DNA of 64,000 bases. Origin: Blautia sp. An81. Lineage in GTDB: Bacteria; Bacillota; Clostridia; Lachnospirales; Lachnospiraceae. The notes below the pieces were generated by a model. That model was not told the DNA's origin and did no database searches. It worked only from the letters and a program-made list of their open reading frames with translations. Shown piece after piece: positions 35,781 through 37,082 of the stretch. The position numbers and the translations under genes were made by a program. The stretch is taken from the NCBI RefSeq assembly GCF_002161285.1, contig NZ_NFHH01000001.1, positions 1-64,000 of the forward strand. The letters run 5' to 3'. Each line of letters starts with the position of its first letter. Position 1 is the first letter of the stretch.

Positions 35781-36008
35781 GCCTTCCATTCTTTTCAGAG
35801 GATTTTCCATACATTCATACTTTTTTATCAGACTTTAGAAATCCTTTATTTTCCAGACACAGAGCCGTCACAATTATCCCCTATACTCATAAGTGTTCAG
35901 AAAGAAGACAGCGGCTGCACAGTCTGAAGCTGTTGTGGCCGCCGGGCTTCGCCAAAAAGTTCTCCTGCCTTACCGGCAGGTTTATATACAATATTTTTTC
36001 TCCTTTCT

Positions 36009-36047
36009 TTCCCAAATGCGGGGCTTTCCCCCTTTGGGAATTTTTTT
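36009..36047 (+). terminator. terminator-like hairpin without an upstream gene
   Basis: TTCCCAAA and TTTGGGAA enclose a GGGG/CCCC inner stem, and the plus strand ends in seven Ts. No plus-strand gene precedes it in the gap 35653-36188, so it probably belongs to the repeat complex or to an unseen small transcript. A smaller hairpin (CCTGCC/GGCAGG) lies at 35964-35980. Confidence 0.6.
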
Positions 36048-36060
36048 GTGCCGTAAGGTC

Positions 36061-36156
36061 GGAACAGGTATCTCTTTTCTTGCTCAGCCTGCGCTCCCTT
36101 GAGTCTTACGTCTCAAGAGATGCTCGGCAAATTCGCAGAAAAGAGATACCTGTTCC
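36061..36156. repeat. 96-bp element with perfect 20-bp terminal inverted repeats
   Basis: Bases 36061-36080 and 36137-36156 are exact reverse complements over 20 positions. The 56-base interior holds its own 6-base hairpin (CTTGAG/CTCAAG, 36099-36118) and the first copy of a 40-base direct repeat. The layout suggests a small non-autonomous repeat element of a genome-wide family, but no transposase is present and no target duplication is obvious. Confidence 0.8.
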
Positions 36157-36215
36157 TACGTTTCTGGCAATCCTATGAGCCTTACGTCTCAAGAGATGCT
36201 CGGCAAATTCGCAGA
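36100..36215. repeat. 40-bp direct repeat pair, second copy covering the end of sdaAA
   Basis: Bases 36100-36139 and 36176-36215 match at 39 of 40 positions, 76 bases apart. The second copy contains the last eight codons and the stop of sdaAA (minus strand SANLPSIS-stop), whereas the first copy is non-coding. Confidence 0.88.
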
Positions 36216-37082
36216 GAAAATCTCACAGACCCGGGCGCAGGCGGCGGGAGTCTGGGCGCAGCCGCCCAGGGCGCTTTCCCTCAGTTCAAAGGGGAGGCTC
36301 CTTCCTACGTGATACATGGCCTCTGCCATCTGGTCAAAGGGTATTACCTGGGTAATTCCTGCCAGAGCCTGCTGGGCACAGATCATAGCGTTAGCCGCCC
36401 CTACGGAATTTCTGTTCTGACAGGGGGCTTCTACTAAGCCTCCGATTGGGTCGCAGACCAAGCCCAGAAGATTTGCCAGAGCGCCAGAAGCTGCATGGAG
36501 ACACATGGCCGGGGTCCCTCCCATAACCTCTACAACGGCAGCGGCAGCCATTGCAGAAGCTGCTCCTACCTCTGCCTGACAGCCTGCTTCGGCTCCTGCC
36601 ACTGAAGCATTCCGCATAAGCAGATATCCTACTGCTCCTGCAGTATACAGACCCTTTATGATTTCTTCATCTGACAGATCATATTCCTCCTGAAGAGCCA
36701 GAAGCACCCCTGGCACTACCCCGGCGGAACCTGCCGTAGGCGCGGCTACGATAACGCCCATAGATGCGTTTACTTCCAATACAGCCATGGCATAGGTAAT
36801 GGCTTTTGACATCAGGCCCCCACAGACACTTCTGCCTTTCTCCTGATATTCCTTCAGCTTTTTCGCTTCTCCTCCGATCAGGCCTCCAATGGAAGGCACT
36901 GGATCTTTTAATGGCTTTCTGGCAGACTCTTTCATGATTTCCAGAGCCTTTTTCATTTTTTCTTCTACTTCTTCCTGAGTAATGCCTGAAAAGTCTGCCT
37001 CTCTCTTTTTCATAACCTGGGAAATGGGCAGTTTTTCTTTTTCACACAGCTTTAACAATTCTGTTCCATGATTAAAATCCAT
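36189..37082 (-). CDS. sdaAA: L-serine dehydratase, iron-sulfur dependent, alpha subunit
   Basis: A 297-residue subunit carrying the active site of the two-part clostridial enzyme. The family pattern is clear: GGLIGGEAKKL, KAITYAMAVLEVNASMGVIVAAPTAGSAG (given in parts: AMAVLEVNASMG and VIVAAPTAGSAG), LGLVCDPIGGLVEAPCQNRN and GGCAQTPAACARVCEIFS, with cysteines for a [4Fe-4S] cluster. It deaminates serine to pyruvate and ammonia. It follows sdaAB by 14 bases. The last eight residues and the stop codon lie in a repeat that is also found 76 bases downstream, so the C-terminus appears to have been altered by that element. Confidence 0.93.
   Translation of the reverse strand: MDFNHGTELLKLCEKEKLPISQVMKKREADFSGITQEEVEEKMKKALEIMKESARKPLKDPVPSIGGLIGGEAKKLKEYQEKGRSVCGGLMSKAITYAMAVLEVNASMGVIVAAPTAGSAGVVPGVLLALQEEYDLSDEEIIKGLYTAGAVGYLLMRNASVAGAEAGCQAEVGAASAMAAAAVVEVMGGTPAMCLHAASGALANLLGLVCDPIGGLVEAPCQNRNSVGAANAMICAQQALAGITQVIPFDQMAEAMYHVGRSLPFELRESALGGCAQTPAACARVCEIFSANLPSIS

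Follow-up and report, generated by a model that had tools for sequence, protein, structure and literature searches.

ERIC, BOX, RUP and similar bacterial MITE-like repeats are non-coding, palindromic and intergenic, as is the Blautia repeat family described here from the genome of Blautia sp. An81. To our knowledge, the ERIC, BOX and RUP families conserve whole elements, whereas in the Blautia family only a core is conserved, the arms around it vary while staying complementary, and repeats can be found nested in repeats. No description of such a Blautia repeat family was found in the literature searched.

REP sequences and BIMEs, which form REPtrons together with RAYT, are also comparable. REP/RAYT systems are defined by a hairpin of 20-40 bp that bears the tetranucleotide GTAG or CGTC at its foot, and their repeats resemble the Blautia elements in being dispersed intergenic imperfect palindromes, present in tens per genome and confined to a taxon (PMC3733652). 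The Blautia elements, however, are far longer (96-150 bp) and have copy-specific arms. Among the copies of the An81 genome no invariant GTAG or CGTC tetranucleotide stands at the foot, and the Y1 (RAYT) transposase PF01797 was not found in genomes G002 and G012, although these contain 30 and 41 matches to the core, respectively. Membership of the REP/RAYT group was rejected, as there is neither a correlation with Y1 nor a foot tag.

Stem-loop-replacing transposition has been reported for IS1272, a member of the IS1182 family (PMC5678879). The Blautia family is like IS1272/IS1182 in that the end GGGGCTGTCGCA is common to a Blautia IS1182-family element and to the outer hairpin of the wrapped (A-type) copies; in addition, the targets would be stem-loops whose apical hairpin is lost, and no target duplication was seen. 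Unlike these insertion sequences, the Blautia repeat carries no transposase gene, its cargo is a hairpin, its transposition is proposed from sequence comparison, and several genomes rich in copies gave no match to the transposase domain. The wrapped form is best described as resembling IS1182-like stem-loop-replacing elements, and the family in general as REP-like dispersed palindromes. Taken as a whole, an explanation made up of a nested palindrome family, an IS1182-like spread of its A-type copies and a local half-copy at sdaAA is considered fairly probable.

The palindrome at the sdaAA 3' end

The family has a core of about 70 bp borne at the tip of hairpins whose arms are copy-specific and complementary. 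The B-type is the older form, inherited at fixed intergenic sites, and the A-type is a hairpin of the same kind enclosed by an outer one whose ends are IS1182-like. The window, a stretch of 64,000 nucleotides, contains one copy of this family, and the features of the locus are given below; R1 is a covariance model of the core.

36061-36156, plus strand: 96-bp hairpin element, an unwrapped B-type copy made of the core and copy-specific perfect arms (direct reading, R1 match, folding)
36061-36080, plus strand: left arm, locus-unique GGAACAGGTATCTC followed by family-type TTTTCT (direct reading, arm searches)
36137-36156, plus strand: right arm, perfect complement of the left arm (direct reading)
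36074-36143, plus strand: family core, with conserved 5' strand GCTCAGYCTGCGC, apical stem and conserved 3' strand GCTCGRCAAATTCGC (alignment, covariance model)
36100-36139, plus strand: copy 1 of a 40-bp unit, the right half of the core (direct reading)
36176-36215, plus strand: copy 2 of the unit, a partial tandem copy of the right half that overlaps the sdaAA 3' end (reading, weak R1 match)
36189-37082, minus strand: sdaAA, L-serine ammonia-lyase alpha subunit, with its last eight codons and stop inside copy 2 (profile matches, C-terminus comparison)
36009-36047, plus strand: intrinsic-terminator-like hairpin with a T7 tail (terminator scan, conservation, folding)
35886-36047, plus strand: candidate small RNA ending at the T-tailed hairpin, conserved in relatives, with a conserved TATACT just upstream (conservation; no Rfam match)

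Direct reading of the sequence confirms a 96-bp element at 36061-36156 with perfect 20-bp inverted ends, formed by the left arm GGAACAGGTATCTCTTTTCT at 36061-36080 together with 36137-36156, and two copies of a 40-bp unit (36100-36139 and 36176-36215) which are identical at 39 of 40 positions and lie 76 bases apart from start to start; the nested repeat complex had been correctly observed in the preliminary description. Both the 20-bp arm and a 35-base part of the unit match twice in the window, with no match in 100 shuffles. The hairpin folds with a z score of about -9 on one strand and about -8 on the other, and no shuffle was equally good. R1 matches the element at 36074-36143 with 84.1 bits, while the region of copy 2 gives a weak match only (36150-36219, E 0.07). 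On neither strand is 36061-36156 followed by the T-run that an intrinsic terminator has after its GC hairpin, and the terminator scan lists none there.

A conserved core within variable complementary arms

Of the earlier idea of a mobile or amplifying element, the dispersed nature of the repeat is borne out: it belongs to a family, according to a search of the An81 genome and to genome surveys. A DNA search of this genome gave further copies of the central part of the element, and 16 of them, the one in the window included, were aligned; they have about 70 bases in common, with outer arms that vary by copy and yet stay complementary. In the core, GCTCAGYCTGCGC as the 5' strand and GYGCTCGRCAAATTCGC as the 3' strand together make a nearly invariant asymmetric internal loop, and the apical stem CTTTGAG/CTCAAAG varies among copies in a compensated way. 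Compensated changes are found at 19 pairs, and 91% of cells are paired, a level reached by none of 500 shuffles.

R1 finds 43 strong copies in the 4.3-Mb An81 genome. Of the 20 Blautia genomes in a first survey, 13 gave matches, and no genome outside the genus did. In a further survey, which covered 220 genomes from the taxonomic family, matches were limited to G000 and G012, both Blautia, and one distant genome (40.9 bits, divergent). A few further copies can be found in public records of Ca. Egerieimonas. The members in Ca. Egerieimonas intestinavium (L227, L262, L276 and L280) are more divergent, with different arms, and have mainly the internal loop and the apical stem in common with the Blautia copies. 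With regard to carriage by phages, none of 17 viral-contig pattern matches gave a core match with the model. A long autonomous element ended by the two core halves was also considered and rejected, half-site searches having returned only known copies, partial copies and weak matches at chance level.

B-type copies with unique arms are present in the window and at C34:180337 and 180484, C13:57663, C10:53290, C28:28418 and C12:118342 of the An81 genome, with a reduced one at C45:133728. They occupy identical sites in several species, where the arms have changed in step: at orthologous sites, 42 double changes keep a pair versus 6 single changes that break it, C10 being left out of the single-change count because arm registration is one base off there. 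This pairing of the arms would be kept by selection or by self-correction of the palindrome. The comparison gave no site with a clean state before and after arrival of the core, and the sites that look empty resemble deletions (the mini-hairpin in G019 and G012 at C12); the G019 mini-hairpin GGAACATCTGTTCC could just as well have arisen when a short match led to a deletion, and was not taken as proof.

All these copies lie between genes, in most cases a short way downstream of one. One B-type hairpin (L124, C12:118342) lies between a T-box-like leader and the start codon of a methionyl-tRNA synthetase-like gene, and another (L313 and L053, C23:120013) between a T-box-like leader and the start of a tyrosyl-tRNA synthetase-like gene, so that a read-through mRNA must contain the hairpin. 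A cis-acting structured RNA, acting as a 3' or 5' UTR element with the arms as basal stem and with incidental dispersal, would agree with these positions, including the two copies between a T-box-like leader and its gene, as well as with the compensated changes at orthologous sites and with a nearly invariant internal loop that has covarying stems on both sides. However, although the core is asymmetric, the copies of the An81 genome that lie between tandem genes, called by a simple ORF rule, are evenly oriented (9 with the transcript, 12 against), which argues against an orientation-specific RNA signal without excluding one, and the Rfam covariance-model search of the element gave no match above gathering score. 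This explanation is held to be rather unlikely.

A constant core within variable complementary arms raises the concrete question of what recognises the loop. The nearly invariant internal loop might be the recognition site of a putative enzyme that places or copies the core into the tips of existing hairpins, which we regard as an unlikely idea. If it were true, arms of any sequence would flank a constant core, and the family would be a mobile element specific to the tips of hairpins, different from both REP and ordinary MITEs.

Wrapped copies and their IS1182-like ends

Most copies of the An81 genome, about 33-36, are A-type, i.e., composites with common inner arms GAATATTTATACA wrapped in an outer hairpin GGAGCTGTCGCATTARTC...GACTAATGCGACAGCCCC; the outer hairpin also occurs without the core, in versions of 40-75 bp. 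Over its first 12 bases, the outer hairpin agrees with one end of an IS1182-family insertion sequence from Blautia. This element, in the Blautia record L142 of G008 (NF033551 above cut-off), starts with GGGGCTGTCGCA, and the ends of the A-type copies (GGRGCTGTCGCA) correspond to those of the insertion sequence (GGGGCTGTCGCA and GGGGCTGTCGCT), so the outer hairpin has IS1182-like terminal repeats. The B-type copy of the window, whose arms (GGAACAGGTATCTC) are locus-specific, has no such ends. The transposase domain PF13751 is present in G000, G001, G008 and G014 and was not found in the copy-rich genomes G002, G006, G012 and G015, for which reason an ongoing mobilisation of A-type copies in trans is put forward as a candidate only.

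Nesting can be followed at two sites. At C13:57663, G002 has an intact B-type copy, G015 and G018 have a complete A-type copy in place of the apical stem-loop, and G012 has kept a remnant. At C23:120013 of the An81 genome, a B-type core is split into its two halves by an A-type copy, with TTTTCTTG..CAGTCTG preceding it and TGCTCGACAAATTTGCAGAAAA following it, while an intact B-type copy is found in the apparently corresponding leader in L313. By analogy, both cases fit the stem-loop-replacing transposition of the IS1272 type (PMC5678879). Moreover, for 25 A-type copies, the bases that immediately flank each copy on its two sides are complementary to one another (none of 2000 permutations gave so high a value; with the five nearest bases omitted, 1 of 2000 did), and A-type copies thus tend to be located within other hairpins or to lengthen them. 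The A-type would spread as a non-autonomous passenger of an IS1182-like transposition that exchanges stem-loop for stem-loop, and the Russian-doll nesting would arise because such transposition swaps stem-loops. In this respect, the Blautia family offers many natural snapshots that fit the mode documented for IS1272.

It is very unlikely that the copies are plain intrinsic transcription terminators with a common repeat. Many outer A-type hairpins are indeed flanked by A and T runs, many of them separate convergent genes and the core-less versions are typical terminators; yet most B-type copies, including that of the window, have no T-run after the hairpin, some copies lie in leaders upstream of genes, and a terminator has no need of an invariant internal loop.

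Several draft contigs end inside A-type copies (C14:68295, C40:16325, C19:54173 and C29:25 in the An81 genome), where the repeat breaks the assembly, and the family thus affects assembly. A similar TTTTATTCTATG motif and its complement border several A-type copies of the same genome (C12:116035, C45:91199, C6:67102 and C1:235203) and may represent another family of outer hairpins. The hairpins that take up A-type copies have also received a third repeat (ATTCCYGCGRGCAACGAGCC...), and a palindromic repeat ATTCCYGCGRGCAACGAGCCAAGCGGRCATGCTYGCATGTCCATTTGGCGACTGCCGCGAGGGTC can be found in or beside hairpins in G001 L085 (sdaAA slot), in G015 L198 (C12) and, in the An81 genome, in L078 beside C11:17289 and in L172.

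The C-terminus of sdaAA and the neighbouring plus-strand hairpin

The gene is identified as sdaAA by TIGR00718 (subunit alpha) above cut-off. It ends at 36189, and 27 bases, i.e., the eight last codons and TGA, lie inside copy 2 as previously described. In close relatives with about 90% protein identity, sdaAA ends with CEIFSADS, CQIFSADS, CEIFSTDS or CEIFSSTDS, and in the window with CEIFSANLPSIS, hence FSANLPSIS versus FS(A/T)DS or FSSTDS; a check for the window's C-terminus in repeat-free relatives gave none. The truly new codons are the last six (NLPSIS), since relatives too have SA or ST before the end, and the change from DS to NLPSIS adds four residues. The Pfam SDH_alpha domain covers residues 16-276 of 297 and the altered tail lies beyond it, so a functional effect is not expected.

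A contig of Ca. Blautia pullistercoris (L225) has an intact B-type copy at the same slot, with homologous arms GGAACAGGTGTCCC and no second unit, and its sdaAA DNA reads FSTDS, an unmodified end of the ancestral type. Because of this combination, copy 2 is seen as a separate local copy of the right half and not as an insertion. The rewriting of a C-terminus by a small mobile element, proposed in the preliminary description, is upheld in that the gene differs from its relatives exactly in the repeat-made stretch, but an insertion into sdaAA is not borne out, and the event would be a small, local templated duplication.

Elsewhere, the sdaAA slot harbors A-type copies (G006, G015 and G018), A-type remnants (G001 and G012), or little or nothing (G002, contig 188, and G019). 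In the sdaAA tree the lineage of the window branches outside these relatives (97/95 support), and the B-type, being found on both sides, was probably first at the slot, already in the common ancestor of a species group. The A and B forms at this slot differ also in the flanking ~50 bases, even between near-identical sdaAA genes (L082 and L225), and a replacement of B by A was not accepted here as proof of transposition; a recombination of segments is a possible cause of the exchange.

Between ..TTTTCYGC and TAAG, the sequence seen in relatives is replaced in the window by the matching stretch of the right half of the element, which suggests that the end of sdaAA was rewritten by a templated local copy joined at short matches. 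In the lineage of the window, DNA synthesis across the hairpin may have switched between the end of sdaAA (..TTTTCYGC..) and the right arm, which resembles it (..TTTTCTGC..), duplicating the right half before it resumed near TAAG; the end of the gene would thereby have been replaced and four residues added. The junctions of the half-copy are imprecise, the flanks having diverged. At the place where copy 1 reads GAGTCT, copy 2 does agree with the consensus of the family (GAGCCT), as would a decayed independent member of it; however, the apical-stem variant CTCAAGAG and the loop TACG are common to copies 1 and 2 and occur in no other An81 copy listed, and partial right-half copies also adjoin other B-type copies (C12:118342 in the An81 genome and L182, at C10, in G018), so that an independent origin appears highly improbable. 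With a local half-copy as the preferred reading, the Blautia hairpins show how small C-terminal changes in host genes can be seeded.

The T-rich hairpin noted on the plus strand beside the element is confirmed at 36009-36047. It had been described as having no gene to terminate, which appears not to hold, as a conserved, small-RNA-like stretch of the plus strand ends there. This stretch (35886-36047) is strongly conserved in close relatives and partly in more distant Blautia; its start follows closely on a conserved TATACT and its end is the T-tailed hairpin, and a small-RNA gene is the simplest reason for such a terminator. Scanning for promoters revealed no consensus sigma-70 site on the plus strand, and a search of Rfam gave no match. 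The stretch is taken as a candidate small RNA of about 160 nt, conserved and not annotated, for which the hairpin is the probable terminator. Before the terminator, this candidate has a pyrimidine-rich CTCCTTTCTTTCCC stretch.
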